From NCBI GenBank assembly GCA_017515325.1, contig JAFWGA010000059.1:1-32153 (forward strand): DNA of 32,153 nt, in the 5' to 3' direction. Below are positions 8,123-31,965 of the stretch, one piece after another; the first letter of the stretch is position 1, and each line of letters begins with the position of its first letter. A model generated the notes under the pieces. That model had not been told where the DNA came from, ran no database searches, and saw nothing but the letters and a program-made list of their open reading frames with translations. Made by a program: the position numbers and the translations under genes. The DNA is from Blautia sp. Lineage in GTDB: Bacteria > Bacillota > Clostridia > Lachnospirales > Lachnospiraceae.

Positions 8123-9214
8123 ATGGCATTATTCAAGACACGGGGTGTTGAAATCGCAGGAGTCACCTGCGCTGTGCCCGACAATTTTATTCCGGCATCG
8201 CATTTTGCCGAACGCTTTGGACAGGATGCCGTGGATCGCTTCGTCGAGGGTACGGGCATACATTCCATATATAACGCGCTCCCGGAACAGACGGCGGGGG
8301 ACCTGGCCTGTGCCGCGGCGGAGGAGCTGTTTCGGAGGGTTCCCGTCGAGCGTGAGAAGATCGGCGTGATGGTACTGGTCACACAATCGCCGGATTACCG
8401 GCGCCCCTCCACAGCCTGTGTGCTGCAAAAACGGCTGAGGCTGCCGTTGGATTGTGCCTGCGTCGAAGTGGCTCTGGGCTGCTCCGGCTTTGTTTACGGC
8501 TTTCAGAGCGCCGGCTCCCTGCTGATGAACAGCGATTCGGAATATGCCCTGCTGCTGATCGGCGAGACAGCCTCCAAGCTTGTCAACCCCATGGATAAAT
8601 CCATTGCCATGATGTACGGAGACGCCGGGGCAGCGATCCTGCTGCAGAAGTCCGGCGACCGGGAAACCACCACGATTCTCAAGAGCGATGGCTATCGTTA
8701 CAAGGCCATCGTGCTGCCGGCAGGCGGCTTCCGGGACATGAATCCCAGCCACGAGCGATTCCTGTGTTCGGACGGCAATGAGCGCACGCTTTACGACATT
8801 TTCATGGACGGCACCTCGGTATTTTCCTTTACCATCTCGGATGTGCCCCAAACCATCAAGGCCTACTATGAAGCAACCGGAACGACGGCGGAGGATTATG
8901 ACACCATACTGCTGCATCAGGCGAATTACTATATCCTGAAACAGGTGGCCAAGCGGATCCGGGCTACGATGGAAAAGATTCCGGTTTCTCTGGACCGATT
9001 CGGCAATACCGGTGCCATCTCCATACCGCTGACGCTGTGTGACGCCTACCCGGAAAAGTCCCCTGGCAGAACCATACGCGCATTGATGAGCGGCTTCGGC
9101 ATCGGGCTGTCCTGGGGCGTCACCTCGGCCTATATCGATACCTCGAAGGTGTTCCCCATCATCAAAACCAGCGACTTTTACGCCGAAGGCAAATTTGTGC
9201 CGGGTGATTATTAG
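8123..9214 (+). CDS. Ketoacyl-ACP synthase III-like enzyme, first copy
   Basis: 363 residues, slightly longer than FabH (about 315-330). The thiolase-fold active site is intact: Cys120 in ALGCSGFVYG, His265 in LHQANYY and Asn295 in RFGNTGAIS, the Cys-His-Asn triad of decarboxylating KASIII. Such enzymes join an acyl-CoA (or acyl-ACP) starter to malonyl-ACP to give a 3-oxoacyl-ACP. AGGAGAC precedes the ATG at 8123. It is the first gene of the plus-strand operon, and its stop codon (TAG) is built into the ribosome binding site of the next gene. The second copy at 10004 is clearly a paralogue, so the pair may act on different starters or as a heterodimer. Housekeeping FabH seems unlikely given the non-fatty-acid context. 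Confidence 0.9.
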   Translation: MALFKTRGVEIAGVTCAVPDNFIPASHFAERFGQDAVDRFVEGTGIHSIYNALPEQTAGDLACAAAEELFRRVPVEREKIGVMVLVTQSPDYRRPSTACVLQKRLRLPLDCACVEVALGCSGFVYGFQSAGSLLMNSDSEYALLLIGETASKLVNPMDKSIAMMYGDAGAAILLQKSGDRETTTILKSDGYRYKAIVLPAGGFRDMNPSHERFLCSDGNERTLYDIFMDGTSVFSFTISDVPQTIKAYYEATGTTAEDYDTILLHQANYYILKQVAKRIRATMEKIPVSLDRFGNTGAISIPLTLCDAYPEKSPGRTIRALMSGFGIGLSWGVTSAYIDTSKVFPIIKTSDFYAEGKFVPGDY

Positions 9215-9224
9215 GAGGAAAAGC

Positions 9225-9992
9225 TTGTATCCTTTGATTGACTTGACGGACAGGCGCATCCTGGTCGCCGGCGCATCCTCAGGCATCGACAGACAGACTG
9301 CCGTCACCCTGAGCCGCCTCGGCGCGAAGATAATCTTGGTCGCCCGCCGTGAGGATAAGCTTCAGGAGGTTCTGGGCGAACTGGAAAACGATGGCCATAG
9401 CTGTTACTGTGCGGATCTGTCCCGGCTGGAAGCGATTGGAGATCTTTTCAAGCGCGTTGCCAGCGAACAGGGCAGGCTGGATGGTATGGTATACACAGCC
9501 GGCATCAGAAAAAATATCCCCTTGTCCATGTTCTCTCCGGAAAAAGTGAATGATGTGTTTACGATCAATTACTTTGCCTTTTTTGAATGTGTCAGACAGG
9601 CGTGTAAAAGAGGGCGCTATCAGGAAGAAATGAGAATTGTCGGCATTTCCTCCATAGCGGCTTTCGTCGGCAACAAGGCTCAGGAGGTTTATGCCGGTTC
9701 AAAAGCAGCCATGAACGCATCGATGCGCTGTATCGCGCATGAGGTTGCCGAAAAGGGAATCTGCCTGAATACGGTGGCTCCCGGCATGATCGGAACGGAA
9801 ATGTATGAAGACTATCTGGCCGATTATGGCGGCGAGGACGGTGAGGCGAATCAGAACCTGAAAAGACGGCAGTATCTTGGGATCGGGAAGACGGAGGACG
9901 TGGTAAATGCCATTGCTTTTTTGATCAGTCCCGCCGCAAGGTTCATCACAGGAGTGACATTGCCTGTAGATGGAGGCATGACGGCATCGTAA
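9225..9992 (+). CDS. Short-chain dehydrogenase/reductase, FabG-like
   Basis: About 255 residues with an SDR fold: nucleotide motif GASSGID, NNAG-equivalent YTAGI, Ser in GISSIAAF, catalytic YAGSK and a C-terminal PVDGGMTAS tail typical of FabG. The third glycine of the usual GxxxGxG loop is Asp here, a notable change that may affect cofactor choice or activity. I place the start at the TTG at 9225 because AGGAGG (9213-9218) lies six bases before it and the SDR fold begins directly afterwards; the frame itself opens at 9195 inside the KASIII gene. It lies between two KASIII genes, so its likely role is to reduce their 3-oxoacyl product to 3-hydroxyacyl. Confidence 0.87.
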   Translation: MYPLIDLTDRRILVAGASSGIDRQTAVTLSRLGAKIILVARREDKLQEVLGELENDGHSCYCADLSRLEAIGDLFKRVASEQGRLDGMVYTAGIRKNIPLSMFSPEKVNDVFTINYFAFFECVRQACKRGRYQEEMRIVGISSIAAFVGNKAQEVYAGSKAAMNASMRCIAHEVAEKGICLNTVAPGMIGTEMYEDYLADYGGEDGEANQNLKRRQYLGIGKTEDVVNAIAFLISPAARFITGVTLPVDGGMTAS

Positions 9993-10003
9993 GGAGATAA
10001 AAA

Positions 10004-11095
10004 ATGCTGACGAGGGTTAGTTCGATTCAGGTTACCGGCATAGCGGCAGCGGTTTCTCATCAATGGGAGTCGCTGCATGATCTGTCGGACGAAAAGCCGG
10101 AAATCATTGATAAGTTTATCAAAAATACAGGCGTTGAAGGAAGATACTCTGCCTCCGGCCGGCAGACCTCCTCCGATTTCTGCTTTGCCGCCGCAGACGC
10201 GCTGCTGACAGCCAGGAGCATCGACAGAAATAAGATTGGCGTCCTGGTCTATGTTACCCAGACCAGTGATTACCGCATTCCTGCGACAGCCTGTGTGCTG
10301 CAGAAGCGGTTGGGGCTTGGCGAGAATCTGATCGCTTTTGACGTGAATCTGGGCTGCAGTGGTTTCGTCTATGGTTTAAGCATTTGTTCCAGCATAATGA
10401 GTACCTGCAGCACGAAATATGGCCTGCTGCTGGCCGGAGATACCTCTGCCCGTGAATTCATGGAGGGCACGAAAAGCAAGACCGGGCATTCTGCCGCTAT
10501 GCTGTTTGGGGATTCGGGCACCGCCACTCTGCTGGAAAGAGGGGATGCAGACAATACCCTGGCCTTTGCCCAGAACACCGATGGCAACGGCTACCAGGCG
10601 ATCTTTGCTCCCTATGGCAGCTGGCGGAACCCCCAGGCACCCCCTGGCATGTTCACCAACTCCACGATGAAGGATATTGACGTCTTCACCTTTGCCACCA
10701 ATCGGGTACCCGTGCAGATCAATGATTACATGGCTGAGCTTGGCACAAGGCCGGAGGATTACGATTGCCTCATCCTGCACCAGGCCAACCTGATGATTCT
10801 GAAACGTATCACCAAAAAAACCGGCTTCCCGCCGGAGAAGATGCTGCTGTCAATGAATCAATTCGGCAACACGTCCTCCGCCAGTATCCCCATCACGCTG
10901 GTACATCACTACGGGGACATGACAAAGGGACAGGTCAACGCGCTGTGCTGCGGCTTTGGCGTGGGTCTCTCCTGGGCAACGGTAGCCCTGAAGCTGAACA
11001 TCCCGGATATTCTTCCCCTTGTGCATACGGATGAATACTTCGTGGATGGGTATAATCTCAATGACAGGAAAGAGAAAGCAGCCACGGATGCATAG
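10004..11095 (+). CDS. Ketoacyl-ACP synthase III-like enzyme, second copy
   Basis: 363 residues, the same length as the first copy, with the same ordered motifs: Cys118 in NLGCSGFVYG, His259 in LHQANLM, Asn289 in QFGNTSSAS. Blocks such as TACVLQKRL and CGFGVGLSW are shared or nearly shared with the copy at 8123, so the pair arose by duplication, though they are now well diverged. An AAGGAGA site precedes the ATG by a short gap after the SDR stop. Both copies keep the full catalytic triad, so neither is an inactive partner of the chain-length-factor type. The product is expected to be a 3-oxoacyl-ACP (or -CoA). Confidence 0.9.
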   Translation: MLTRVSSIQVTGIAAAVSHQWESLHDLSDEKPEIIDKFIKNTGVEGRYSASGRQTSSDFCFAAADALLTARSIDRNKIGVLVYVTQTSDYRIPATACVLQKRLGLGENLIAFDVNLGCSGFVYGLSICSSIMSTCSTKYGLLLAGDTSAREFMEGTKSKTGHSAAMLFGDSGTATLLERGDADNTLAFAQNTDGNGYQAIFAPYGSWRNPQAPPGMFTNSTMKDIDVFTFATNRVPVQINDYMAELGTRPEDYDCLILHQANLMILKRITKKTGFPPEKMLLSMNQFGNTSSASIPITLVHHYGDMTKGQVNALCCGFGVGLSWATVALKLNIPDILPLVHTDEYFVDGYNLNDRKEKAATDA

Positions 11096-11104
11096 GGGGT
11101 GTAA

Positions 11105-12526
11105 GTGTTGTTTCTGAATATCGATCAACATGATCAGGGAAAGACAGCCATAAAGGACGATTCCGGCCATACATTGACCTATGGCGAGGTCTGCGGCGCG
11201 GTCGAGGCATTTGCAGCCCTCGGCCTGCCCCGATGCGTGATCTTCTGCCTGTGTCAGAACAGTGCCGGGGCCCTGCTGGGTTACCTGGCCTTTGAGAATA
11301 ACCGGCAGGTGCCGCTGCTGCTGAGCGCCGGTCTGGATCAGGGGCTGCGCCATAATCTGGAAACCGTTTACCGTCCCTGCTATTACTGGGTCCCTGCGAG
11401 CATGCGTGAGGCTATCGGCGGGGAAACGGTGCATGAAGACTGCGGTTACGTCCTGCTTAAAACCGGTTACGCCCCTTATGCCCTGAACGAAAAGCTGTCC
11501 CTGCTGCTGACAACCTCGGGCTCCACGGGCAGCCCCAAGCTTGTGAGACACAGGTACGGCAACCTGGAGGCCAACGCCGAGAACGTGGCAAAAGTCTTCA
11601 ACTGGTCGAAAAACGAGGTGGGCATCTGTGATCTGCCCATGAATTATACCATGGGTCTGAACGTCATCAACAGCCACCTGGTGGTCGGTGCTTCCGTCTT
11701 GATGGTCAAGGCCAACCTGACGGATCCGGATTTCTGGGAATTCATCCGTGTCAATGAAGGTACCAGCTTCTGCGGCGTGCCCTTCAGCTATGAGATAATG
11801 CGGCGCATCGGCTTCGACAGGATGGATCTTCCGAAGCTGCGAACCCTGGCCGAGGGCGGCGGCAAGCTGACGGACAAAATGTTCAGATGGATCGCCGTTT
11901 TCTGCAGGAACAGCGGCAGGCGCTTCTGCGCCACCTTCGGCACCAGCGAGACCAGCGCCCGTATGGCATTCCTGGATCCGGAAAAGGCCCTGGATAAAAT
12001 CGGCAGCGTGGGCAAGGCTATCCCCCATGGAGAGCTCTTCCTGCTGGACGAAGTGCCAAACGAGGACGGTACCGTCACCGGCGAGCTGGGCTACCGCGGT
12101 CCCAACGTCACCATGGGCTATGCCGTATGCCGCGAGGATCTGTTGAAGGACGACAAGTTTCGCGGCGAATACCACACCGGCGATATCGCCAGGCGTGATC
12201 AGGAGGGCTTTTATTTCATCATCGGCCGCAAAGGCAGATTTCTGAAGCTGTTCGGCCTGCGGGTAAGCCTGGATGAAATCGAGCGGATCCTGAAAACCCG
12301 GTATCCAAAGGCAGACTTTGTATGCGCCGGCGACGACAAGCGGATGAATATCTTCACTACGGACGCCACACTCAGGGACGAGGTTGTTCCCTTTATCAGC
12401 GCAAAAACAAATCTGCACCGTTCGGCCTTCCGCCTTTTCGTCATCGATGAGATCCCGCGCAACGACTACGGAAAGATTACCTTCTCCGCGCTGGAGGAGC
12501 TGGCGCAAAGAAACGAAGAATGCTAA
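11105..12526 (+). CDS. Adenylate-forming acyl-CoA/ACP ligase
   Basis: 473 residues of the ANL superfamily: P-loop TTSGSTGSPK (136-145), GTSETSARM, the YRGPNVTMGY and YHTGDIA motifs, hinge region GRKGRFLKLFGLRVSLDEIE, and the catalytic lysine in NDYGKI (about Lys457). The enzyme activates a carboxylic acid as an acyl-AMP and passes it to CoA or to the phosphopantetheine of an ACP. At 473 residues it is on the short side, close to free-standing carrier-protein ligases such as DltA-type enzymes. The start is GTG at 11105 (or TTG at 11108) after AGGGGG, which overlaps the preceding stop. It probably supplies the starter acyl group for the KASIII enzymes or loads one of the two ACPs at 31.4-32 kb. 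Confidence 0.9.
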   Translation: MLFLNIDQHDQGKTAIKDDSGHTLTYGEVCGAVEAFAALGLPRCVIFCLCQNSAGALLGYLAFENNRQVPLLLSAGLDQGLRHNLETVYRPCYYWVPASMREAIGGETVHEDCGYVLLKTGYAPYALNEKLSLLLTTSGSTGSPKLVRHRYGNLEANAENVAKVFNWSKNEVGICDLPMNYTMGLNVINSHLVVGASVLMVKANLTDPDFWEFIRVNEGTSFCGVPFSYEIMRRIGFDRMDLPKLRTLAEGGGKLTDKMFRWIAVFCRNSGRRFCATFGTSETSARMAFLDPEKALDKIGSVGKAIPHGELFLLDEVPNEDGTVTGELGYRGPNVTMGYAVCREDLLKDDKFRGEYHTGDIARRDQEGFYFIIGRKGRFLKLFGLRVSLDEIERILKTRYPKADFVCAGDDKRMNIFTTDATLRDEVVPFISAKTNLHRSAFRLFVIDEIPRNDYGKITFSALEELAQRNEEC

Positions 12527-12569
12527 ACCGTTCCGAACCCGTAATGAAAAAGAGGTATTACCGACAATT

Positions 12570-13838
12570 ATGACACCCTCACAAAAAAACCTGCTTTCCT
12601 TACTGTCTCATGCCCTCTTCCGGCATGCCATGCCTGAGAATATCACCGGCCTGGACAGCATCATGGCCGAAGCTGACGTGCAGGGAGTCCTTCTCATGGT
12701 CTATCACGCCCTGGCCCGGAACAGCCTGTACCGCTCCGGTATCGAAAAATGGAAAAATCCGGCACATCGGCTTGCCGCTAATAATATACGGATTTTTCAA
12801 TATCACGAATTACTGCACGAATGGATGACAAAGGCCCGGATTCCCTATGTCATCTTAAAGGGCGCTGCCTCGGCAGAATATTATCCTGATCCCTATCTGC
12901 GCGAAATGGGCGATGTAGACTTCCTGGTAGAAGACAAGCAACTTGCGACGGTCGGCCGGATATTGGAAACACAGGGGTTTACCCGTCTGAATGAAAAGAA
13001 TCCACAGCATATCGTATATCTGAACCCTATCGTTTTTTTTGAAATGCATTTTCAGCTGCCGGGAATGCCTGACGGAAGCCCCGGAAGAATGATCGACAGC
13101 TACCTGGAGGATATCTATACCCAGTCCCGGCCTTATGGGAAAGGGGAAACAGATATGATCGTTCCTTCCCCCTTTCACCATGGCCTCATTCTGCTTTTGC
13201 ACACCAGCCATCATCTGACCGGAGAAGGGATCGGTCTGCGGCATTTATGTGACTGGGCAGTGTTTGAAAATTCTCTCGGAGAAGAGGAATTCACCGCTAT
13301 CTTTGAGAAGAAGCTGAAAGATGTCGGCTTATGGGAGTTTGCAAAGATCCTTACCATGCTGTCTTGCTTTTATCTGGGAGCGCCCCCCCGTAAATGGGCT
13401 TCCGTAAGCGAACCCGGCATACTCCTGCAGTCCCTGATCCAGGACATGCTGGCGAGCGGGAATTTCGGCATTAAGGACGCGGAAAGAAGCAACCAGACAT
13501 ATATCATTTCTTCAAGGGGAAAAAACGGAGTGGGAAATACCAATATCCTCCAACAGTTTTTTTCCTCGATCAACCGGATCGTAACCCTGAAATGGCCTGC
13601 TTCCCACAAATACCGGCTCCTGCTGCCCATCGGCTGGCTCTATTTTGGCCTGGGCTATCTGGTCAATATTCTCAAAGGAAAACGCCAAAAAATCCATCCC
13701 GGAAAAATGCTGGCGGGAGCGATCCACAGAAGAAAAATATACGCACAGCTCAGGCTTTTTCAAGCCGAAGCTCCAGACAATGAGCAGCGGCCTGACTTGG
13801 CGGTAAAACGAGCCTGCCGGAAAGAACCACGAAGCTGA
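12570..13838 (+). CDS. Nucleotidyltransferase-like protein (NTP_transf_5 family)
   Basis: About 422 residues. The region at 90-120 carries YVILKGAASAEYY followed by LREMGDVDFLV, the lysine-glycine plus DxD arrangement of the NTP_transf_5 (uncharacterised nucleotidyltransferase) family. A conserved His-rich HLTGEGIGLRHLCDWA sits at mid-length. Members are often found in exopolysaccharide and peptide-maturation clusters, but their reaction is not established. There is a short hydrophobic stretch near 360-375. The ATG at 12570 has GAGG about 14 bases upstream, so the start is less certain; the frame itself opens upstream inside the ligase gene. A role in modifying the sugar or acyl intermediate is only a guess from position. 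Confidence 0.75.
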   Translation: MTPSQKNLLSLLSHALFRHAMPENITGLDSIMAEADVQGVLLMVYHALARNSLYRSGIEKWKNPAHRLAANNIRIFQYHELLHEWMTKARIPYVILKGAASAEYYPDPYLREMGDVDFLVEDKQLATVGRILETQGFTRLNEKNPQHIVYLNPIVFFEMHFQLPGMPDGSPGRMIDSYLEDIYTQSRPYGKGETDMIVPSPFHHGLILLLHTSHHLTGEGIGLRHLCDWAVFENSLGEEEFTAIFEKKLKDVGLWEFAKILTMLSCFYLGAPPRKWASVSEPGILLQSLIQDMLASGNFGIKDAERSNQTYIISSRGKNGVGNTNILQQFFSSINRIVTLKWPASHKYRLLLPIGWLYFGLGYLVNILKGKRQKIHPGKMLAGAIHRRKIYAQLRLFQAEAPDNEQRPDLAVKRACRKEPRS

Positions 13839-13865
13839 ACCGTGACAAACGGAGGTGACTGTCCC

Positions 13866-14549
13866 TTGAAGATATTAGTTTTTGCGCCTCATCCGGATGA
13901 CGAGATATTAGGCTGCGGCGGAACCTTAGCAAGATATGTTGCCGAAGGAGCTGAGGTATCGGTATGCATCGTCACCAGCCCCTTGCCCCCGGTATACGAT
14001 TTCAGGATGGAAGAAGGTCAGAACTGGCCGCACATCATCTACCCGGAAATCAAGGAAAGCCACGGGATCCTGGGCATCAGAAACACCATATTCCTTCAGT
14101 TTCCCTGTGTGATACTGGAAAGCGTCATGAGGCATGAAGTGAACGGAAAGATCCTGGAGGTCATGAAGGCAGAAAAGCCGGATGTGGTCTTTATCCCCCA
14201 TTTCGGGGACATGCAGAAGGATCACAGGGTGGTGGCCGAAGCCGTAATGGTAGCGGTTCGTCCTAAATACTCCTTCGCCCCGCGGCTGGTCTATTCTTTT
14301 GAATGCCTGTCCGAAACGGAATGGAATATTCCCCACGGTGCAAATGCCTTTATCCCCAACACATACGTCAATATATCAGAATACCTGGAAAAGAAAATAG
14401 AAGCCTTCCGCTGTTACCGGTCTCAGCTTGGCGCCTTTCCCGACCCTCGCTCACCGGAGGCGGTTGAAGCCCTGGCAAGACTGAGGGGCTCCACTGCCGG
14501 CTTTTACGCAGCCGAGGCTTTCGCTCTGATCAGAGAATATCGCCCGTAA
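13866..14549 (+). CDS. PIG-L/LmbE-type N-deacetylase
   Basis: About 227 residues. The zinc motif APHPDDEILGCGGT lies right at the N-terminus (His9, Asp11, Asp12 region), and a second block PHFGDMQKDHRVV supplies the third ligand. Both are hallmarks of PIG-L family de-N-acetylases that act on N-acetylglucosaminyl lipids or small molecules. I use the TTG at 13866, seven bases after GGAGGTGA and directly before the conserved KILVFAPHPDDE; the longer frame from 13842 adds eight residues unlike the family. In this operon it may remove acetate from an amino sugar so that the LpxD-like enzyme at 17164 can attach a longer acyl chain. Confidence 0.88.
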   Translation: MKILVFAPHPDDEILGCGGTLARYVAEGAEVSVCIVTSPLPPVYDFRMEEGQNWPHIIYPEIKESHGILGIRNTIFLQFPCVILESVMRHEVNGKILEVMKAEKPDVVFIPHFGDMQKDHRVVAEAVMVAVRPKYSFAPRLVYSFECLSETEWNIPHGANAFIPNTYVNISEYLEKKIEAFRCYRSQLGAFPDPRSPEAVEALARLRGSTAGFYAAEAFALIREYRP

Positions 14550-14603
14550 CTGAACCCCGCTGCCGCTTCGTGTCAGGCCACTTTGCTGGATGGAGAACGA
14601 CTT

Positions 14604-23498: not shown

Positions 23499-24242
23499 TT
23501 ACATGATCGTGCATCCGTCCACGGCCAGCACCTGCCCGGAAATGTAGACAGAAAGATCAGAAACCATAAAAAGACATGCCTTCGCGATATCCTCCGGCTC
23601 TGCCAGCCGTCCCATACAGATATTGCTGATTCTGCTCTTCAGCTTTTCCGGATCCGCCTGCTTCATCATGTCCGTATTGGTCAGTCCTGGTGCGATGGCA
23701 TTCACCCGGATTCTCTTTGCCGCCAGCTCTTTTGCCGCGGATTTGGTGAGGGAAATCACAGCGCCCTTTGTAGCCGAATAGACAAGCTGTCCCTTATTGC
23801 CCCGCAAAGCAGTCATGGAGGTAATATTCACAATGCTGCCCCCCGTCTCCTGACGTCCCATGATCCTGCTGACCGTCTGCAGCATATAGATTGTGCCGTA
23901 GACGTTGACGGAAAACATTTTCTCCATATTTCTATGGCTGATCATGCCGATCAGTTCATTGAACTCCACGCCGGCATTGTTAACCAGTCCATCGATATGG
24001 CCGCAGGCTCTTCTGACCTTACCAATCCCCTCTGTCACCGCTCTTTCGTCCGAGATATCAAAATAGAGAGAGCGGACCTCTCCCTTAGCGTCTTTGTTAA
24101 ACTCCCCGGCCCACTCCTCCACGGAGCCTTCCCTGGTGGCAACTGCATACACAAGTGCGCCATTTTGGGCGAAGACCTGGCAGACAGCCTTCCCGATCCC
24201 GCGGCTTCCTCCGGTCACAATGCAGACCTTTCCCGTTAGCAT
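23499..24242 (-). CDS. Short-chain dehydrogenase/reductase, FabG-like
   Basis: About 247 residues, a textbook FabG-type SDR: TGGSRGIGKAV (cofactor loop), NNAGV, active-site Ser in NITSMTAL, YSATKGA for Tyr and Lys, and an ending in AVDGCTIM. The frame opens at 24344 within the upstream gene, but GAGGAG lies six bases before the ATG at 24242, so that start is used. It follows the 5S-like carboxyltransferase and may reduce 3-oxoacyl-ACP made from the extender unit that the transcarboxylase supplies, parallel to the SDR at 9225. A role on a sugar nucleotide cannot be excluded. Confidence 0.9.
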   Translation of the reverse strand: MLTGKVCIVTGGSRGIGKAVCQVFAQNGALVYAVATREGSVEEWAGEFNKDAKGEVRSLYFDISDERAVTEGIGKVRRACGHIDGLVNNAGVEFNELIGMISHRNMEKMFSVNVYGTIYMLQTVSRIMGRQETGGSIVNITSMTALRGNKGQLVYSATKGAVISLTKSAAKELAAKRIRVNAIAPGLTNTDMMKQADPEKLKSRISNICMGRLAEPEDIAKACLFMVSDLSVYISGQVLAVDGCTIM

Positions 24243-24252: not shown

Positions 24253-25650
24253 TCATCCATGCAGCCAGTCAACGTCAATCTCATGCACGACCAGGTCGTC
24301 TCTTTTTCTGATAAATTCCGGGGCGACCTGTTCAAACATAGCACAGCTCAGCAGATCCTCATCTGTCCTGGCAATATCATGGTAGCGCTCCCTGACCCTG
24401 TCCAGCTCATCCTCCAGAAGATCAGCGGGTCGGCAGGTGATCAGCTCATCATCCCCAATGGCCATCCTCCGGATATTTTCATTGACTTCTCCGGGCAGAT
24501 CGCCATACTCCCCTCGCAGAAGGCTCTTGGATTCCCTGGTAAAGCTTCTGTATCTTCCCGCCAGGACATTCAAAACAGCCTGTGTGCCAACGATCTGACT
24601 GGTTGGCGTAACCAAAGGCGGATAGCCGAAATCCCTGCGGACCCTGGGTACCTCAGCCAGGACCTCTTCCAATCGTTCCTCCGCATTGGCCTGCTTCAGC
24701 TGGGATATCAGGTTTGACAGCATCCCGCCGGGAACCTGGTAGAGAAGGGTGTTGGGATCCACACGCAGCACCTTTGAGCTGATGGTTCCCTCCTTTTCCA
24801 TCCTTGCCGCCACTTTTTTAAATTGCGCAGCAGCCTCTCCCAGCTTCTTTAGATCCAGGCCGGTATCTCTCGGGGTTCCCCGCAGTGTCGCCACCAGGGA
24901 TTCTGTGGCAGGCTGAGAGCTTCCGTTGGCAAACGGAGACAAAGCGCAGTCCACAATATCCACCCCTGCCATGGCAGCCATGAGATAAACCATATCTCCG
25001 GTTCCCGTTGTATTATGGGTATGAAGGTGTACGGGGAGGGACAGCCTTTCCTTCAGCTTCTTCACCAGGCTGTAGGCGTCCATAGGAAGCAGAAGATTCG
25101 CCATGTCCTTGATACAGATCGTATCCGCCCCCATCTGCTCCAGCAGGACCGCCTTTTCCACAAAATAGTCCTCGTTGTGGACAGGACTTGTCGTGTAGCT
25201 CAAGGCCGCTTCTACGATCCCACCGTATTTCTTTACTGCTGTGATCGCCTTTTCCATGTTCCGGACATCGTTCAGGGCATCGAAAATACGCACAACATCT
25301 ATACCGTTCTCAATCGATTTGCGGCAGAAGGCATCCACCATATCATCCGCGTAATGCCGGTATCCCAAAAGATTCTGCCCCCTGAGCAGCATCTGCAGTC
25401 TGGTATGGGGCAAAGCCCGTCGCAAGGCCCTCAGTCTCTCCCAGGGATCCTCGTGGAGAAAGCGCATACAGGCATCAAAGGTCGCCCCGCCCCAGCACTC
25501 CAAGGACCAGTATCCCATGGTATCTAGCACCTCACAGGCCGGAAGCATATCCTCCAGCTTCATCCTTGTGGCTGCCTGGCTCTGGTGGGAATCCCGGAGA
25601 ATGGTATCGGTAAGGAACAGGGGCTTTCTGACTTCAAACAGTTCATCCAT
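24253..25650 (-). CDS. 5S-like carboxyltransferase subunit (oxaloacetate/pyruvate half)
   Basis: About 465 residues of the HMGL-like/PYC_OADA type. LTDTILRDSHQS (metal Asp), CIKDMANLL (the lysine equivalent to the carbamylated Lys of the 5S subunit) and HLHTHNTTG (two metal His) are all present, followed by the conserved PGGMLSNL block. It takes CO2 from oxaloacetate onto biotin, or the reverse. The C-terminus has no biotin domain, consistent with the separate BCCP gene just upstream. ATG 25650 has GTGAGG six bases before it; GTG at 25662, overlapping the BCCP stop, is an alternative. With no OadB or biotin carboxylase beside it, its role is that of a transcarboxylase subunit. Confidence 0.93.
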   Translation of the reverse strand: MDELFEVRKPLFLTDTILRDSHQSQAATRMKLEDMLPACEVLDTMGYWSLECWGGATFDACMRFLHEDPWERLRALRRALPHTRLQMLLRGQNLLGYRHYADDMVDAFCRKSIENGIDVVRIFDALNDVRNMEKAITAVKKYGGIVEAALSYTTSPVHNEDYFVEKAVLLEQMGADTICIKDMANLLLPMDAYSLVKKLKERLSLPVHLHTHNTTGTGDMVYLMAAMAGVDIVDCALSPFANGSSQPATESLVATLRGTPRDTGLDLKKLGEAAAQFKKVAARMEKEGTISSKVLRVDPNTLLYQVPGGMLSNLISQLKQANAEERLEEVLAEVPRVRRDFGYPPLVTPTSQIVGTQAVLNVLAGRYRSFTRESKSLLRGEYGDLPGEVNENIRRMAIGDDELITCRPADLLEDELDRVRERYHDIARTDEDLLSCAMFEQVAPEFIRKRDDLVVHEIDVDWLHG

Positions 25651-25658
25651 AGACAGCC

Positions 25659-26045
25659 TCACTTTACCTCAAATAACAGATCCCCGCTGGCCACAGTCTC
25701 GCCGGTCCGGCAATTCATACTTGTAATCCTTCCGTCCGCCGGGGCAAGGATCTCGTTCTCCATTTTCATGGCCTCAAGGATCAGGACAAGCTCTCCGGCT
25801 TTTACCGTGCTCCCCTCATCCTTTTCTATCCGGATCACCGTTCCCGGCATGGGAGCCCTCACTGCCCCCGTATTGTACACCGTTTTCTTCTGGCTGGAGG
25901 GATCCATCACATTGACAGTGACGTCATTACCCTTGAATTCCCTGTATTCCTTTTTCCCCACAGGCTTAGCCCCTGCATTTTCAGGGACAAGCTCGATCTC
26001 CATCTCGTAGGTCTTTCCCTCTAAGGTAATGCGATACTTGCTCAT
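25659..26045 (-). CDS. Biotin carboxyl carrier protein (1.3S-like)
   Basis: 128 residues. The C-terminal 65 residues form a biotinyl domain with the invariant AMKMENEI motif; Lys94 is the expected biotin attachment site. MPGTV at 66-70 precedes it, as in transcarboxylase 1.3S and OAD carriers. The N-terminal 60 residues ([15 protein letters not shown], then a linker) match the OadA/MmdC-type carrier. It sits between the two carboxyltransferase genes and shuttles CO2 between their active sites. A GGAGG lies about eleven bases before the start, in the tail of the small gene. Confidence 0.95.
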
Positions 26046-26048
26046 GTT

Positions 26049-26222
26049 CTAAGAATCCTCCAGCTGATATTTATGATAGGAAATATGATTGTCTTCTATG
26101 AATTTCTCCAGACTGCTTTTCTGTATCTCTTTAAAGGAGAGAACCCTCACATGCTTTGGCTGCACACCCTTTTCCTCGGCAACAGCAGCTACAGCCATTG
26201 CCAGGATCTTCTCAGTTTCCAT
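26049..26222 (-). CDS. Small subunit of the transcarboxylase (OadG/MmdE-like)
   Basis: A 57-residue gene that is easily missed. It reads METEKILAMAVAAVAEEKG, then QPKHVRVLSFKEIQKSSLEK, then FIEDNHISYHKYQLEDS. The start at 26222 has AGAGG eight bases before it, and the gene fits exactly between the carboxyltransferase and the BCCP. The ILAMAVAAVAEEKG stretch followed by a basic VRVLSF segment is like the soluble C-terminal part of OadG/MmdD (delta), or the small epsilon subunit of methylmalonyl-CoA decarboxylase. The N-terminal membrane helix of OadG is absent, so the complex is probably cytosolic. The assignment is by position and pattern. Confidence 0.8.
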   Translation of the reverse strand: METEKILAMAVAAVAEEKGVQPKHVRVLSFKEIQKSSLEKFIEDNHISYHKYQLEDS

Positions 26223-26245
26223 TTGTCATACCTCTTTATGCGCCG

Positions 26246-27799
26246 TCATAGCGGAATATTCCCATGCTTCTTTTTCGGCAGGCTTCTTTCCTTTGTTTTA
26301 AGCATCCTGAAGGCGCCGGCTATCCTTGTCCTCGTCTCCTCCGGAAGGATCACCTCGTCCACATAGCCATGTTCTGCGGCAATATAAGGGTTCATGAATT
26401 TCCTGTTGTATTCATCAAGCAGCTCCTCCTTCTTCGCGGAAGGATCCTCCGCCCTTTCGATCTCTTTCCTGCCGATGATCGAGACCGCGCCGGCGGCTCC
26501 CATGACGGCAATTTCCGCGATGGGCCAGGCATACACCAGGTCAGCGCCTGTTCCCTTGCTGTTCATGGCGATATAGGCCCCGCCATAGGCTTTACGCATA
26601 ATCAGTCCCACCTTGGGAACCGTCGCTTCAGAATAGGCAAAAAGCAGCTTCGCGCCGTGGCGGATGATACCGCCATGCTCCTGCTGGCTGCCGGGAAGAA
26701 AGGCCGGGACATCCACAAGGGTGAGAATGGGGATATTAAAACAGTCACAGAAACGGATAAAGCGGGCTCCCTTATCAGAAGCGTTGATCTCCAGGGCTCC
26801 GGCCATAAACTGGCTCTGATTGGCCACAATCCCTATGGTATCGCCATCAAGCCGGGCAAATCCTATCACCAGATTTCTCGCAAAATCCTCCTGGATCTCC
26901 AAAAAGCTCCCTTCATCCACAAAGGTATGAATCACTTTCCTGACATCATAGGGCTTTCGGGAATCCACAGGGACAATATCGCCAAGCAGGAGGCTGTTAT
27001 CCCTGGGAATCCCCTCCACATGCATGGGTTTGTCTTCGTTATTCTGCGGGAGATAGCCCAGAAGACGCCGGACACCGTTCAGACAGGACAGATCATCCGG
27101 ATAAACAAAATGAGCGACGCCGGATGTACTGCTGTGCACCGAGGCGCCGCCCAAATCTGATGATGAGATGACCTCACCTGTGACAGACTTTACAACAGCA
27201 GGACCGGTGATATACATCTGGCTGTTCTTTTCCGTCATGAAAATATAGTCTGTGATGGCCGGAGAATAACACGCACCGCCGGCACAAGGCCCAAGGATAA
27301 CGGATATCTGGGGGATCACCCCGGACGCAGCCGTGTTCCGATAAAAAATGTCCGCATAGCCCGAGAGTCCGTCGATTCCTTCTTCTATCCTCGCTCCGCC
27401 ACTGTCATTGATGGAAATAAAAGGAGCTTTCATTTCCAGTGCCTTATCCATGGCATGGCAGATCTTCATGGCCTGGGCTTCCCCCAGAGAGCCGCCTTCA
27501 ACGGTAAAATCCTGAGAGGAGGCAAAAGCAAGCCGTCCATGAATATAGCCATAGCCGGTAACCACGCCGTCACCAGGACGTTTCTTTTTGTCCATCCCGA
27601 AATCAGTCGCCCGGGAAGTGATCATATCATTAAACTCGCAGAAGCTGTCATCGTCAAACAAGGCATCCATCCGCTCCCTGGCGGTCAGCTTTCCGGAAGA
27701 ATGCTGCTTTGCGATCCGGTCAAGACCACCGGCTGCCGCAATCACCTCTCTTTTGTGAATGAGGCGGTCAATCCCCTTCTGCCACTTTGCATCCATCAT
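26246..27799 (-). CDS. 12S-like acyl-CoA carboxyltransferase (PccB/MmdA type)
   Basis: 517 residues of the two-domain crotonase-fold carboxyltransferase family. LTARERMDALFDD at about 38, GGSLGEAQAMK, NDSGGARIEEGIDGL (oxyanion and acyl-CoA region) and the C-domain AYGGAYIAM and AWPIAEIAVMGA blocks are all in order. These enzymes exchange CO2 between biotin and an acyl-CoA, mostly propionyl-CoA/methylmalonyl-CoA and sometimes acetyl-CoA/malonyl-CoA. GGGAG precedes the two neighbouring ATGs (27799 and 27796). It is the first gene of the four-gene biotin set and follows the second pyruvyltransferase by about 30 bases. Housekeeping Na-pumping decarboxylation is unlikely because no beta subunit is present. 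Confidence 0.94.
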   Translation of the reverse strand: MMDAKWQKGIDRLIHKREVIAAAGGLDRIAKQHSSGKLTARERMDALFDDDSFCEFNDMITSRATDFGMDKKKRPGDGVVTGYGYIHGRLAFASSQDFTVEGGSLGEAQAMKICHAMDKALEMKAPFISINDSGGARIEEGIDGLSGYADIFYRNTAASGVIPQISVILGPCAGGACYSPAITDYIFMTEKNSQMYITGPAVVKSVTGEVISSSDLGGASVHSSTSGVAHFVYPDDLSCLNGVRRLLGYLPQNNEDKPMHVEGIPRDNSLLLGDIVPVDSRKPYDVRKVIHTFVDEGSFLEIQEDFARNLVIGFARLDGDTIGIVANQSQFMAGALEINASDKGARFIRFCDCFNIPILTLVDVPAFLPGSQQEHGGIIRHGAKLLFAYSEATVPKVGLIMRKAYGGAYIAMNSKGTGADLVYAWPIAEIAVMGAAGAVSIIGRKEIERAEDPSAKKEELLDEYNRKFMNPYIAAEHGYVDEVILPEETRTRIAGAFRMLKTKERSLPKKKHGNIPL

Positions 27800-27830: not shown

Positions 27831-28901
27831 TCAGGCTCCTATTTTTCTCAGATATGCCATTCCCTTTTGCCTCATTTCCTCCAGGCGCAATTGGGTATCT
27901 GAATAATCCATAGGATCCAGCCTGATCTGTGAACTGTCATAAACCGCTCTGTCTGTCTGCCCTGCGTATTCCAGGAGATTCGTCACCCGCTCCGGCGCGT
28001 AATCGGGAACCAGGATGGAAAATTCTTTATGGAAAATCAGGGAAAAAGCCGTGCCATGAAAGGAATTCGTCACGACATAATCCGCATTGGCCAGCAGTTC
28101 AAGAAATTCCCGGGGGCCGATATTGGTCAGAGTTCTGTCGGCTCTGCCGAATGCCTTTGGCTCCTTTGTGATGACATAGATCTTCAGCCCTTTTTTCTCT
28201 GCTGCCTCATGCGCCATCTGATACAGCTTCCTTGATTCCGGAAGGCAATAGATGAGCAGATACCTGTCCTTTTTCTTTTTCTCCTTTATGTCCAGCAAAG
28301 CCTTCCACTCATCTCCGGTGAAAAGAAACACGGGGTCAGGCATCAGCTCCGCCGCTACGCCAAGCTCTGCCTGGAAATAATCCTGGGTGCTTTTCTCCCG
28401 AACGGACAGAAAGTCAAAGCGCAGAAGCTGTTTTTGGTACTCTTCATCCTTACCTGGCCGGCATACCCCCAGACTGGCCGCATAGGAGGCCTTGATTCCC
28501 TTTTCCACGAAATCAAGATAATAGGTATGGTCTCCCTTCGTCAACAGGAGGTTAAATACCTGGTCACTGCCCGAGATAAACAGGTCATAGCTGCCGTTTG
28601 TTTCCGCAATCGTGTCCCTCGTGTATAGCTTGCTTCTTTGCACATCCCTCCGGAAATGCCTGTATCTGCATCTTCTTCTGATCACAATCAGGTTAAACAG
28701 AAGATTATACATTCTCAGCTTCAGTCTCATACCAGGCCGAAGCACATGGCGGAATTTATGCATATTCTCTATGGCGGGGCAGCGGTAGTCGATCAGCTCC
28801 ACTTCGTTTCCCCAACCCTGTAATTTTTTCTGAAGAGAATACGACTGCAGAGCAGCGCCAAGATTATAGGCATTACAAAAAGTTAAGATTCCTATTTTCA
28901 T
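27831..28901 (-). CDS. Polysaccharide pyruvyl transferase
   Basis: About 356 residues. MKIGILTFCNAYNLGAALQSYSL starts the fold, FISGSDQVFN sits at about 100, and TNSFHGTAFSLIF at about 285 is the family's SFHG block. Expected reaction: transfer of pyruvate from PEP to a sugar hydroxyl pair. The frame opens at a GTG at 28940, which touches the polymerase stop but lacks a binding site; ATG 28901 with GGGAG upstream is chosen. It directly precedes the transcarboxylase genes. Confidence 0.9.
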   Translation of the reverse strand: MKIGILTFCNAYNLGAALQSYSLQKKLQGWGNEVELIDYRCPAIENMHKFRHVLRPGMRLKLRMYNLLFNLIVIRRRCRYRHFRRDVQRSKLYTRDTIAETNGSYDLFISGSDQVFNLLLTKGDHTYYLDFVEKGIKASYAASLGVCRPGKDEEYQKQLLRFDFLSVREKSTQDYFQAELGVAAELMPDPVFLFTGDEWKALLDIKEKKKKDRYLLIYCLPESRKLYQMAHEAAEKKGLKIYVITKEPKAFGRADRTLTNIGPREFLELLANADYVVTNSFHGTAFSLIFHKEFSILVPDYAPERVTNLLEYAGQTDRAVYDSSQIRLDPMDYSDTQLRLEEMRQKGMAYLRKIGA

Positions 28902-28939
28902 TCTCAGGGAACTCCCATTCTCCCCAAAACCAGTCTCCA

Positions 28940-30217
28940 CTAGAAGGAAAGCAAAAGACCCACAAAATATGTGATCAGAAAATTATAGTCATATAAAGGA
29001 TTACCGGAAAGACAATAGGCCAGGAAAAAAACCTGCAAAAAGATGCTCAGCCGAAGAGAATAAAACTCGTCATTTCTGATGCCTTCCACGATCAGTTCCC
29101 GGTATTTTCTCAGAGTCTTTACCAGAGCAGCGCCCGTGGCGAGCAGAAATGAACCCAATCCGGCGATACCCGCTTCACATAATAACTGAAGATAAACATT
29201 GTGAACCTCAAAGGTTTGTTTTGAATCACCAAGAGTATTTCTCGAATACATCCTGAATACGCCCCAGCCAATTCCCCGGAAAGGGTGTTTCTTGAACAGG
29301 GAATAGGCCAAGGCATACAAAATTGTCCGTCCGCTGTAGGTTTTGTCTTGCGTAGTGAATCTTGCGACAAGGGAGTGATAAGAATGACGGAACAAGGGTA
29401 CCAGGAAATATAACAGGATACTGGATGCAATTATCGCGATCATGGCAAAAACGATCCGCACTAATACCTCGGCATCTATCCGAAGAACATTTTCCCGTCT
29501 GAACCCACACAGCCAGATTACAAAAAAGGCTGCTGCGATATCCAGGACAAAAGCCCTTTTCTGCAGCAGCAGAAAAGCAGTGGAAAAACAGGCAAGGACA
29601 GCAACATTGTTGACCGTCAGCCTTTTTTCCCTCAGGGAAATGATATAGGCACCCAGCCCTGCGCAGATAAAGCTTCCTGCAGAACCGGCAAAGGGTATGA
29701 TTCCGCCCGTCACCATTGTCCCTGCCCTGCCTAAAACGACTCTCCTTGAGGCTGTTGTATATATACCCAGGAGGCTTGTCTGAAAAATATGTGTCGTAGC
29801 GTCAAGCAAAACGGTGATTGTTACGAAAAAACCACATCCAAATAAAGCTTTAAAGATAATCTCTTTGTCTATTTCTACCGTCTGCATACACAGGCAAAAA
29901 GCAGCACCGCCTATGATAGCCATAACGTCATAGTAACCTGCGGTTATCACCCCATGTCTGCCGCTGAGGATGCAGAAGCAAATGAAAAAAAACCAGGAGA
30001 TAAGGCCATTCGATCCGATTCGTTTCACTTCAAGCAAGGCAAGAAAGACAAGAGCAATCAGGGCACGCATCGGGAATCTGAAATATATGTCTACTGTCAT
30101 CTGGAAACTGACCCATAAGATCCAGAAAAGCGGCCACATGGTAAAACACCAAACCAACAGATCAACGACCGCTATCGTCCTGCGCTGCGGCAAATATCTA
30201 CCACTGCCTGACTCCAT
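28940..30217 (-). CDS. Wzy/O-antigen-ligase-like polymerase
   Basis: 425 residues, almost wholly hydrophobic, with about 10-12 predicted membrane segments. A periplasm-type loop holds HNVYLQLLCEAGIAGLG at about 355, the pattern of the Wzy_C/O-antigen ligase family, and RGIGWGVFRMYS precedes it. It would polymerise the flipped repeat units or ligate the chain. GAGGG lies seven bases before the ATG. No Wzx flippase gene is in the window, so it must be outside or replaced by an ABC exporter. Confidence 0.88.
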   Translation of the reverse strand: MESGSGRYLPQRRTIAVVDLLVWCFTMWPLFWILWVSFQMTVDIYFRFPMRALIALVFLALLEVKRIGSNGLISWFFFICFCILSGRHGVITAGYYDVMAIIGGAAFCLCMQTVEIDKEIIFKALFGCGFFVTITVLLDATTHIFQTSLLGIYTTASRRVVLGRAGTMVTGGIIPFAGSAGSFICAGLGAYIISLREKRLTVNNVAVLACFSTAFLLLQKRAFVLDIAAAFFVIWLCGFRRENVLRIDAEVLVRIVFAMIAIIASSILLYFLVPLFRHSYHSLVARFTTQDKTYSGRTILYALAYSLFKKHPFRGIGWGVFRMYSRNTLGDSKQTFEVHNVYLQLLCEAGIAGLGSFLLATGAALVKTLRKYRELIVEGIRNDEFYSLRLSIFLQVFFLAYCLSGNPLYDYNFLITYFVGLLLSF

Positions 30218-30304
30218 GATTTTCCCTCAATATCGTATTATCATAAACAAACAAAATGCGTAACTGTTAAGCCGCGTATTCCTTCACCGTTAAGGGACAG
30301 GCAG

Positions 30305-31423
30305 CTACCGGTAGATCTCATAGAGCTGCCCGCTGACTACCCTTTCGCTGAAGTGAATATCCGCATACCGGGCGATCCATTCCGGATCGTAATCCTTGTA
30401 TGAATGATAGATCTGCCGGAAAGCTTCCCTTAAAGAGTCAGGATCCCGGTAATCTGCGATAATTCCCAGTCTTTCATCCGGATTGTCCATAAAGACTGTG
30501 GTTTTTGAAGTAATTACAGGCTTTCCGCAAGCCCAGGCTTCTATCACCGGGACACAGAAGGTTTCAATCCGGCTAAAAACAACAAGAACATCCGATGAAG
30601 CAATCAGTTCGGCCATCTTCTCCCGCGCCAAAGCCCCCGGCATATGAACCTGGTCTTCTGCCTTGTTCACAGCGATGAGGGATCTGAGCCATCCTGCCTC
30701 CGATCCGTCACCCGCTACAGTCAGGGACACATCTTTATTGTCATGAAATACGTCAACAAAAGCTTCTATGACCATGTCATACTGTTTCAGCGGTACCAGT
30801 CTGCCCGAACAGACAAATCGGAATCCCTTGTGCGGTATCTTTCCCGGCTTGAAGACATGGTTCACAACATTAGGCACAATGAAGATATCTTTTCTGCCGG
30901 TAAGCTGACGGAGCGATGTCTGTAGTCCGGCCCCAACGCAGCAGAAGGCATCCGCCCTGGCCGCGAAATCCCGCAGATTCTGAAGGCAATAGCCGTCCAG
31001 TGTTTTGCATTGTACCGCGCTCCAGTGCTCCGTGGCGACTATCTTGACTCCCTTTTCCTGCCAGGGCTGGACAAGCCGATAGGGAAAAAGGGATGGATAG
31101 TGAACATGGATGACATCAGGTATCCCCTTTTTTTTCGCCAACCAGAAGATAAGCTTCTCCCTGAACCGGGCATATATTCTGTTTAGCCGCTGTTGGGAAA
31201 ATATGGGGCCAATCGGAATACTGCAGACCGCAAGATTGACCCCATCCTCCATTTTGCAGTAAAATCCGAATCTTCTCATTCTTCTGATCGATCTGATGTC
31301 GACCATCAGGTAGAAAACCTCCATGCCTGCCCTGGCCAGCATCTGAGCCTGCTCCAGCTCAAAGCTGCCACACATCTGATTGGCGGTGGTTGGATATTCC
31401 CTGCCAAGCACCAAGACTTTCAT
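30305..31423 (-). CDS. Family 4 glycosyltransferase
   Basis: 372 residues, GT-B fold. The start MKVLVLGREYPTTANQMCGSF is typical of GT4, the donor region carries VFSRIETFCVPVIEAWACGKPV (the ExxxxxxxE motif), and VCSGRLVPLKQYD opens the C-domain. GGAAGGG is seven bases before the ATG. It lies between ACP2 and the polymerase. It probably adds a middle or terminal sugar; the specificity is unknown. Confidence 0.9.
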   Translation of the reverse strand: MKVLVLGREYPTTANQMCGSFELEQAQMLARAGMEVFYLMVDIRSIRRMRRFGFYCKMEDGVNLAVCSIPIGPIFSQQRLNRIYARFREKLIFWLAKKKGIPDVIHVHYPSLFPYRLVQPWQEKGVKIVATEHWSAVQCKTLDGYCLQNLRDFAARADAFCCVGAGLQTSLRQLTGRKDIFIVPNVVNHVFKPGKIPHKGFRFVCSGRLVPLKQYDMVIEAFVDVFHDNKDVSLTVAGDGSEAGWLRSLIAVNKAEDQVHMPGALAREKMAELIASSDVLVVFSRIETFCVPVIEAWACGKPVITSKTTVFMDNPDERLGIIADYRDPDSLREAFRQIYHSYKDYDPEWIARYADIHFSERVVSGQLYEIYR

Positions 31424-31436
31424 AAATACCCTTCCG

Positions 31437-31676
31437 CTAGATTTCTACGCCATATCTGCGCAATATCTTTTTTCCGTTTTCATAAGATTCGTAATGAAGG
31501 ATATCCTCCGATTCAAACATGACGTCAAAGGCATCCTCTAATTCTGATATTAAGGAAAGATGCGCAACGGAATCCCACTGACTGACCGCTTTAAAGGTAA
31601 AGCTGTCATTCAGCACAGCCTCACCGACTCCGAGCACATCTGTAAAAATCCTGTTGTATTTTTCGAGGTTAGACAT
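31437..31676 (-). CDS. Acyl carrier protein, second copy
   Basis: 79 residues, ACP length. The phosphopantetheine site is Ser36 in QWDSVAHLSLI, in the helix-2 context of true ACPs (DSL in AcpP, DSV here). Helix 4 ends in YENGKKILRRYG. GGGAG precedes the ATG by six bases. Because the operon has two distinct ACPs, one may serve chain building (KASIII) and the other the acyl transfer, or one may carry an amino-acyl group. It is not the housekeeping AcpP, whose DSLD motif it lacks. Confidence 0.9.
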   Translation of the reverse strand: MSNLEKYNRIFTDVLGVGEAVLNDSFTFKAVSQWDSVAHLSLISELEDAFDVMFESEDILHYESYENGKKILRRYGVEI

Positions 31677-31740
31677 GGTAATCTCCCTTTGGCCGTACCC
31701 CCACGCCGTGTTGGCTGTCCGGCCTTCCTCACACGAAGCT

Positions 31741-31965
31741 TTAGTCCTTAACCATCAGCTTCAGAATATCTGAAACCGTCTCAAATCCCTTGATATCATC
31801 TCCGCTAAGCTTCACAGCGAACTCATCGTCCATCAGAACAATAAGGGACAGCTTTGCCATAGAATCATATTCCTCCACATCCGCAAGGACCGTGTCCGCT
31901 TCCAGGGTTCCCTCGTCAAGCTCCCATGTCTCCTCAAGCATAGCAATTCTTTCCTGATCTGTCAT
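31741..31965 (-). CDS. Acyl carrier protein, first copy
   Basis: 74 residues, acidic, with EEYDSMAKLSLIVLMDDEF: Ser35 is the predicted phosphopantetheine site. The start is the ATG at 31965, nine bases after AGGAGG (in 31973-31979). The frame extends upstream to 32097 through repeat sequence that should not be translated. It shares the W/Y-D-S-(V/M)-A-x-L-S-LI signature with ACP2 but differs elsewhere, so the copies are old. It is the first gene of the minus-strand operon in this window; any promoter lies to the right of or within the repeat region. Confidence 0.9.
   Translation of the reverse strand: MTDQERIAMLEETWELDEGTLEADTVLADVEEYDSMAKLSLIVLMDDEFAVKLSGDDIKGFETVSDILKLMVKD

Follow-up and report, generated by a model that had tools for sequence, protein, structure and literature searches.

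Why a polysaccharide locus should carry genes for ketoacyl synthesis, 3-hydroxyacyl-CoA metabolism, de-N-acetylation and sugar N-acylation is the question raised by contig JAFWGA010000059.1 of Blautia sp. (assembly GCA_017515325.1). This whole draft-genome contig, 32,153 bases in length (genome completeness 87.7%), is referred to as the window; G numbers denote genomes (G000 being that of the window), C numbers contigs (the window being G000:C6) and L numbers named loci. An initial annotation had proposed that the acyl genes of two converging operons act as one joint system, undescribed in this combination, which exchanges the acetyl group of an amino sugar for a short 3-hydroxy- or methyl-branched acyl group. 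Every part that it named was found at the same position by Pfam and NCBIfam matches, the acyl carrier proteins (ACPs) weakly so, through PDB matches and a DS motif.

Two candidate acyl-building modules in one polysaccharide locus

Comparison across loci shows that the window holds two separable modules, whose roles are predicted from gene content. Module A consists of a 3-hydroxyacyl-CoA dehydrogenase and an SCP2-type thiolase, and module B of a carboxyltransferase, ketoacyl synthase III (KASIII), short-chain dehydrogenase/reductase (SDR) and ACP, accompanied by acyltransferase (AT) and PglD-like proteins. The locus itself is, judged by its gene families, a Wzy-type polysaccharide locus. Our preferred reading, held at a probability of about 0.55, is that the window represents most of a surface-polysaccharide locus equipped with both acyl-building modules.

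From the genes, residues, neighbourhoods and correlated identities observed, we infer that the genes are expressed and that substrates, stereochemistry and order of steps would be as follows. The thiolase would condense two acetyl-CoA molecules into acetoacetyl-CoA, which the dehydrogenase would reduce to (S)-3-hydroxybutyryl-CoA. The substrate of the PIG-L family deacetylase would be a UDP-HexNAc, or else a HexNAc intermediate at an early stage. Once its acetyl group is removed, the LpxD-like enzyme would place the hydroxyacyl group on the freed amine, and the small phosphoglycosyl transferase (PGT) would transfer the acylated sugar-phosphate onto the lipid carrier, where it would become the first residue of the repeat unit. 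In module B, the transcarboxylase would form malonyl-CoA without ATP, for later loading onto an ACP, the AMP-forming ligase would attach a free acid to ACP1, and the KASIIIs and SDRs would build a short hydroxylated acyl-ACP, from which a second amino sugar would be acylated by a PglD-like enzyme whose gene probably lies on contig C39 of the same genome. Both (R)- and (S)-3-hydroxybutanoic acids are named in a review passage as the most abundant fatty acids amide-linked in glycans (PMC10609480), and glucosamine bearing (R)-3-hydroxybutanoyl has been reported from Hafnia alvei (PMC4869667).

Distribution and neighbourhood of module A

A contig scan with the peptide patterns HMFNPPY and FPFADKM placed the dehydrogenase in 49 named loci from Bacillota, Bacteroidota and Planctomycetota (two assemblies gave two loci each, L030/L031 and L032/L068), 48 of which entered the neighbourhood counts, L040 being left out as its gene set lacks a dehydrogenase reading frame. 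The thiolase directly follows the dehydrogenase in 39 of the 41 loci with at least 1 kb downstream, the exceptions being L047 and L071. In 33 loci the sequence extends 4 kb to either side; no more than four genes from the dehydrogenase, 29 of these have an acyltransferase gene, 19 a DegT gene, 17 a PGT gene and nine a deacetylase gene, acyltransferases (LbH or GNAT) being named by phmmer likeness at an E-value of 1e-5. Furthermore, an acyltransferase gene is immediately adjacent to the pair in 23/33 loci, whereas the mean for other pairs of genes in these loci is 0.157. The partners differ, and include a PglD-like enzyme with DegT, an LpxD-like enzyme with PIG-L and, in L062 (uncultured Clostridia bacterium), a polysaccharide deacetylase with a GNAT protein. 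That ordinary butyrate or β-oxidation genes came to lie in the locus by chance would agree with the commonness of these families in central metabolism, but is extremely improbable given their recurrence beside sugar acyltransferases in three phyla, the frequency of direct contact and the presence of a second MmdA-like/OadA-like pair elsewhere in the window genome, on C3.

Several residues are retained throughout the alignments, namely His, Glu and Asn in 43/43 dehydrogenases (the His being partly built in by the scan patterns) and C, HDC and GHP in 40/40 thiolases. The PDB matches of the dehydrogenase are headed by 3-hydroxybutyryl- and L-3-hydroxyacyl-CoA dehydrogenases, and module A is best read as a predicted supplier of (S)-3-hydroxybutyryl-CoA. 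The pair is rare, since a thiolase match above 40% identity was found besides the window only in G074 among 291 genomes sampled from the class, and the dehydrogenase query at E 1e-50 matched the window alone among 398 genomes sampled from the phylum.

The tree of 43 dehydrogenases mixes phyla, with both Planctomycetota rows placed among Bacillota, one of them in a starred set together with the window. Horizontal transfer of module A is likely on this evidence, although misbinned contigs of metagenome-assembled genomes could give the same picture. More tentatively, and with the odds somewhat against it, we suggest that a two-gene hydroxyacyl-CoA plug-in moves horizontally across at least three phyla and pairs with any sugar N-acyltransferase (LpxD-, PglD- or GNAT-type), thereby diversifying glycans, and that the window adds to it a transcarboxylase-fed, discrete type II polyketide-like line for a second, longer polyhydroxyacyl group on another sugar of the same polymer.

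The LpxD-like subtype with PIG-L and phosphoglycosyl transferase

Six LpxD-like proteins of 294 amino acids are encoded in module A loci, namely in the window, L025, L031, L034, L044 and L056, the other five sharing 56-73% identity with that of the window. The order dehydrogenase - thiolase - LpxD-like - PGT recurs in all five, a recurrence which shows that the arrangement is not due to chance, with the PIG-L gene after the PGT gene or before the dehydrogenase gene. A PIG-L gene lies within four genes of the dehydrogenase in 5/5 LpxD-type loci with full flanks versus 3/28 other loci (Fisher p 2.4e-4), the LpxD-type loci being a biased, non-independent sample gathered through the dehydrogenase. 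Across the six loci the identities of the LpxD-like, PGT and PIG-L proteins co-vary (r 0.84-0.94; Mantel 22, 29 and 25 of 720), PGT identity following LpxD-like identity at r 0.94, as do those of the dehydrogenase and thiolase (r 0.78; Mantel 13 of 720), while across these two blocks r is at most 0.41. This fits an acyl-sugar unit whose acyl donor is supplied by another, exchangeable unit.

The best PDB match of the LpxD-like profile is Escherichia coli LpxD (E 6.3e-38), whose His239, which we take to be the catalytic His, aligns with H226, invariant in 6/6 proteins. The match ends at residue 295 of 341 in 3eh0 and the protein itself at residue 294, the C-terminal end of LpxD thus being absent. 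The C-terminal helices of LpxD contact ACP, and their absence favours a CoA donor. As for the N-terminal UDP-binding domain of LpxD, the match to Acinetobacter baumannii 4e75 begins at profile position 22, while for all other LpxD chains listed it begins at position 81 or 107. We favour an enzyme that would work like LpxD, though it scores below the LpxD family cut-offs (170.6 against 207 for NF002060; 166.9 against 242.5 for TIGR01853). A lipid A-like role, in which a longer 3-hydroxyacyl-ACP from fatty-acid synthesis is used and the product is a glycolipid anchor, would agree with the similarity to LpxD, the retained His and the ACPs within the locus; it is improbable in view of the missing C-terminal end, the scores under the cut-offs and the position of the LpxD-like gene directly after the dehydrogenase and thiolase genes in 5/5 other loci.

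No DegT gene was found in the window by Pfam and NCBIfam, and the DegT protein of G735, a single query at 1e-20 run with no positive control and no other aminotransferase families, was unmatched in the window genome (87.7% complete). This suggests that the amine arises by deacetylation, which may not hold for L025, L034 and L044, where DegT adjoins the pair. Together, the PIG-L pairing and the missing DegT match fit a predicted swap of acetyl for another acyl group.

Module B and its extender unit

The two KASIII-like proteins score 200.2 and 202.9 bits, below the FabH cut-off of 249 (NF006829). The assignment of ACP1 and ACP2 is weak: both carry the DS motif and match PDB ACPs (E 1.5e-4 and 7e-4), while remaining below NCBIfam cut-offs and matching no Pfam family. 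Transcarboxylase subunits of the 12S, 5S and biotinyl types are encoded together at 24253-27799; the PycB domain model is the only transcarboxylase-related model whose cut-off is reached (NF006761; 689.6 against 402), the scores for 5S (NF008984; 556.8 against 827) and mmdA (TIGR01117; 761.1 against 998.8) falling short.

KAS relatives were found in 12/391 genomes of the class sample, the window included, and in each of the seven examined among the other eleven, ACP and SDR genes lie near KAS. AMP ligase relatives occur in 11/391 genomes, again including the window, and the ten other loci (L101-L110) hold an ACP1-like ACP (7/10), LuxE (8/10), LuxC (7/10) and a transketolase N-half (3/10), as well as SDRs. 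Since these relatives sit with LuxE and LuxC, the ligase is not tied to KASIII alone. As a separate observation, the LuxE/LuxC/AMP-ligase set, also present in G735:C4, suggests reduction of acyl-ACP to an aldehyde, perhaps followed by ketol transfer.

The methyl-branched product offered by the initial annotation loses ground at this point. The AT motif is APFH in C39 and G735:C4 and AAFH in G735:C3, the window itself encoding no AT, and such motifs are here presumed to favour malonyl; found on related or neighbouring contigs, they give malonyl a slight preference over a methyl-branched extender. A methylmalonyl extender draws support from MmdA being the best-scoring named family for the carboxyltransferase, yet with these motifs and the unmet MmdA cut-off it is highly improbable.

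Co-occurrence of the two modules

On contig G735:C4 (that of L034), a single strand encodes relatives of enzymes from each of the two converging operons of the window, in the order DegT, dehydrogenase, thiolase, LpxD-like, PGT, PIG-L, MmdA, PglD-like, LbH, AT, SDR, KAS2, ACP2, ACP1, KAS1, metallo-β-lactamase (MBL), SDR2, two transketolase halves, AMP ligase, GNAT, LuxE and LuxC. The order ACP2-ACP1 is common to this contig and the window. The G735:C4 stretch contains no biotinyl or OadA genes, OadA being found on C31 of G735 beside a second MmdA, and neither the NTP_transf_5 nor the ATP-grasp query from the window matched within it. L050 (G739:C4, Prevotellaceae) likewise carries KAS/KASIII, two ACPs and an AMP ligase upstream of the pair, with no MmdA or AT in the stretch. 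The module B order DegT-MmdA-PglD-AT-KAS-SDR-ACP recurs, with changes, in G735:C3 and G738:C11, where the pair is absent from the stretches examined and is held by both genomes on another contig. The two modules thus co-occur in G000, G735 and G738 (on different contigs in the last), while G731, G734 and G740, three of the six LpxD-type genomes, hold module A and no close KASIII or MmdA relatives, although these are drafts which may miss genes. In the flanks of module A (at most 10 kb, many shortened) KASIII was found in 2/48 loci and MmdA in 1/48; 14 of the genomes that carry these loci were searched for KAS as a whole.

The initial annotation had named conserved neighbourhoods as the check on its joint system, with either operon kept without the other as the contrary outcome, and it is the latter that these counts and the single-module genomes present; one joint system is partly supported by the arrangement in G735:C4 and L050, and the separability of the modules speaks against it. 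A single acyl chain, in which (S)-3-hydroxybutyryl-CoA from module A primes the KASIIIs and, after malonyl extension and SDR reduction, the LpxD-like enzyme transfers a 3,5-dihydroxyhexanoyl-like group from ACP, would account for both modules on one strand in G735:C4 and has a parallel in the N-3,5-dihydroxyhexanoyl sugar of Flavobacterium psychrophilum, for whose synthesis two KAS, a single ACP and a reductase are predicted by the authors (PMC6519341). It is nevertheless unlikely, given the three LpxD-type genomes without close module B relatives, the 46/48 module A loci without KASIII in their flanks, the LpxD match that stops short of the C-terminal end and the PglD-like enzymes that module B loci have of their own. 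In a separate observation, CapF relatives lie at G735:C4:4754-5866 and G735:C3:74040-75155, each as two match pieces inside one open frame.

The right end of the window and contig C39

The minus-strand operon may be cut at its 5' end, as the window is a whole contig. Its right end is formed by a dispersed, GC-rich repeat some 110 bases long, which is matched in full or in part 30 times in the genome, in several cases at contig ends. The left end of C39 bears a copy of the repeat in fitting direction and then, on the minus strand, genes for a dehydratase (719 amino acids), a PglD-like LbH protein, an AT, two SDRs and a KAS, the KAS gene stopping 265 bases short of the contig end. With their counterparts in G735:C4, the AT and the PglD-like LbH protein, as well as the dehydratase across two thirds of its length, share 57-58% identity. 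In the loci compared, the nearest relative of the KAS is KAS2 of G735:C4, whose gene comes before that of ACP2 on that contig. As judged by near-identical repeat copies (98-100%), the contig ends able to follow the window are the left end of C39 and the right end of C1 (reversed); C1 was rejected, its end bearing sugar-transporter-like genes (named by eye) and no acyl genes. Among the shorter and weaker copies, those on C54 and C64 are internal. We infer from gene content that C39 adjoins the window and probably continues the minus-strand operon. The same contig also has on its minus strand (G000:C39:20001-39373, L132) an open reading frame that runs for 6457 amino acids or more.

Contrary evidence

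Besides the biased sampling of the LpxD-type loci, several points weigh against the preferred reading. The directions of the thiolase and dehydrogenase reactions are assumed, and no recognised acyltransferase lies near the pair in 4/33 loci (L028, L045, L052 and L057). The structure model of the LpxD-like protein is of low confidence (pLDDT 62.8), and a fold search with it gave no PDB match at E ≤0.001 and TM-scores of at most 0.30; the best 22 of 85 matches were LpxD, which offers weak support. The independent class sample of 391 genomes yielded no close LpxD-type member besides that of the window, and the three more distant relatives that it contains, in G204, G843 and G214 (150-229 bits), fall outside the close subfamily, with no pair nearby. 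In the three LpxD-type loci with DegT beside the pair, the acceptor could be a 4-amino sugar. Finally, the placement of C39 depends only on gene content and on a repeat which also ends other contigs: the right end of C5 and the left end of C52 carry it facing as in the window and so compete with the window for C39.

In two of the four loci in which no acyltransferase was recognised, an NTP_transf_5-like protein is encoded directly after the thiolase (L028:12989-14173 and L052:12556-13743, 30% and 23% identical to that at 12570-13838 of the window).

Relation to known systems

In lipid A synthesis, LpxC and LpxD de-N-acetylate and then N-acylate a UDP amino sugar. The window is alike in the proposed pair of steps, the LpxD-like sequence and the His, and differs in having PIG-L for LpxC, a shorter acyltransferase without the C-terminal end, a Clostridia host and a capsule-type locus. 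The Propionibacterium transcarboxylase is composed of 12S, 5S and 1.3S subunits; three subunit types likewise lie side by side in the window, but inside a glycan operon and below the 5S and MmdA cut-offs.

Module B, as predicted, resembles two published systems. The viosamine island of Pseudomonas syringae (vioS, vioR, acp, vioB) is a sugar locus that contains a KASIII, a reductase, an ACP and a small acyltransferase, and it is linked to N-3-hydroxybutanoyl on an amino sugar (PMC3927599). The window shares its KASIII, reductase and ACP in one sugar locus, while having the LpxD-like enzyme as its sole acyltransferase and a VioB/PglD-type one only if C39 adjoins. Unlike the window, the seven genes listed for the island include no thiolase/dehydrogenase pair, LpxD-like protein, PIG-L or transcarboxylase; its amine is provided by the aminotransferase VioA, and its product is the flagellin glycan of a Gram-negative bacterium (PMC3927599). 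The wfpC-G genes of the F. psychrophilum O-antigen locus, like the window, comprise two KAS, an ACP and a reductase, and they include a PglD-like acyltransferase such as C39 would provide; the acyl pathway is the authors' prediction, and L-FucNAc genes lie in the locus, as in the window. They act, however, on QuiNAc4N from PglE/PglF, and the available text names no CoA-level cassette, PIG-L or carboxyltransferase (PMC6519341).

The novelty asserted initially therefore stands in part. N-acyl synthesis on ACPs has already been published for sugar loci (PMC3927599; PMC6519341), whereas neither the thiolase/dehydrogenase pair, PIG-L with LpxD nor a transcarboxylase was recognised in glycan loci in the open-licence literature, represented mostly by titles and the beginnings of abstracts. 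A dehydrogenase-thiolase pair beside a sugar acyltransferase could serve as a genetic marker for hydroxyacyl amino sugars among bacteria with few solved surface-glycan structures. Module A would be a candidate source of the (S)-3-hydroxybutanoyl groups known from glycans, separate from the KASIII/ACP route, and the LpxD-like enzyme would take a place in the polysaccharide synthesis of a Clostridia-type host, with PIG-L where lipid A synthesis has LpxC.

Layout of the window

The Pfam and NCBIfam matches arrange the genes into three operons (minus, 7720-2814; plus, 8123-18786; minus, 31986-18823), of which the two with acyl genes converge at 18786 / 18823 (Table 1). The stop and start codons of the dehydrogenase and thiolase genes, and of the thiolase and LpxD-like genes, overlap, which suggests coupled translation.

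Table 1. Features of the window, with the evidence for each assignment
Feature	Position	Strand	Evidence
KASIII-like 1 (module B)	8123-9214	+	Pfam ACP_syn_III/_C; Cys-His-Asn present in alignment; 200.2 bits
SDR 1, probable 3-ketoacyl reductase	9195-9992 (true start between 9195 and 9234)	+	46% to SDR adjoining KAS2 in G735:C4
KASIII-like 2 (module B)	10004-11095	+	Pfam; 202.9 bits; 50-51% to G735:C4
AMP-forming acyl ligase, probable ACP1 loader	11105-12526	+	Family match; ACP1-like ACP near relatives
NTP_transf_5 protein	12570-13838	+	Pfam PF14907; not named initially
PIG-L family de-N-acetylase	13842-14549	+	Family match; HPDDE motif in sequence
3-Hydroxyacyl-CoA dehydrogenase (module A)	14583-15917	+	Family and PDB matches; His/Glu/Asn kept 43/43
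SCP2-type thiolase (module A)	15914-17167	+	NF004936, 555.1 bits against cut-off 375; C, HDC, GHP kept 40/40
LpxD-like sugar N-acyltransferase, 294 aa	17164-18048	+	Start overlaps thiolase stop; PDB profile match to LpxD
Small PGT (Bac_transf)	18145-18786	+	Family match; not named initially
GT2, polysaccharide pyruvyl transferase, FrhB-like protein	18823-22228	-	Family matches
Glycosyltransferase with GT1 domain	22243-23514	-	Family match
SDR 2, probable 3-ketoacyl reductase	23499-24242	-	Family match
Transcarboxylase 5S/OadA-like subunit (HMGL + PYC_OADA)	24253-25662	-	Family matches
Biotinyl carrier	25659-26045	-	AMKM motif and family match
12S/MmdA-like carboxyltransferase	26246-27799	-	Family match; 59-64% relatives in G735, G738 module B loci
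Pyruvyl transferase, Wzy-type polymerase (Wzy_C), glycosyltransferase with GT1 domain	27831-31423	-	Family matches
ACP1	31437-31676	-	PDB ACP match, DS motif; 41% in G735:C4
ACP2	31741-31986	-	PDB ACP match, DS motif; 68% over 71 residues in G735:C4
Divergent operon: GT2, ATP-grasp, WecB-like, CapF-like (L-FucNAc-type genes)	2814-7720	-	Family matches
Dispersed repeat, contig breaks there	32045-32153		30 matches in own genome, itself included

InlB-type and BspA-type repeat proteins are encoded at the left end of the contig (51-2085). The ATP-grasp protein of the divergent operon (3979-5280) has relatives of 76-77% identity in L025 and L039, both of which are dehydrogenase-pair loci; there it sits in a group of GT2, one further gene, ATP-grasp and SDR, the intervening gene encoding an MBL-fold protein in L039.

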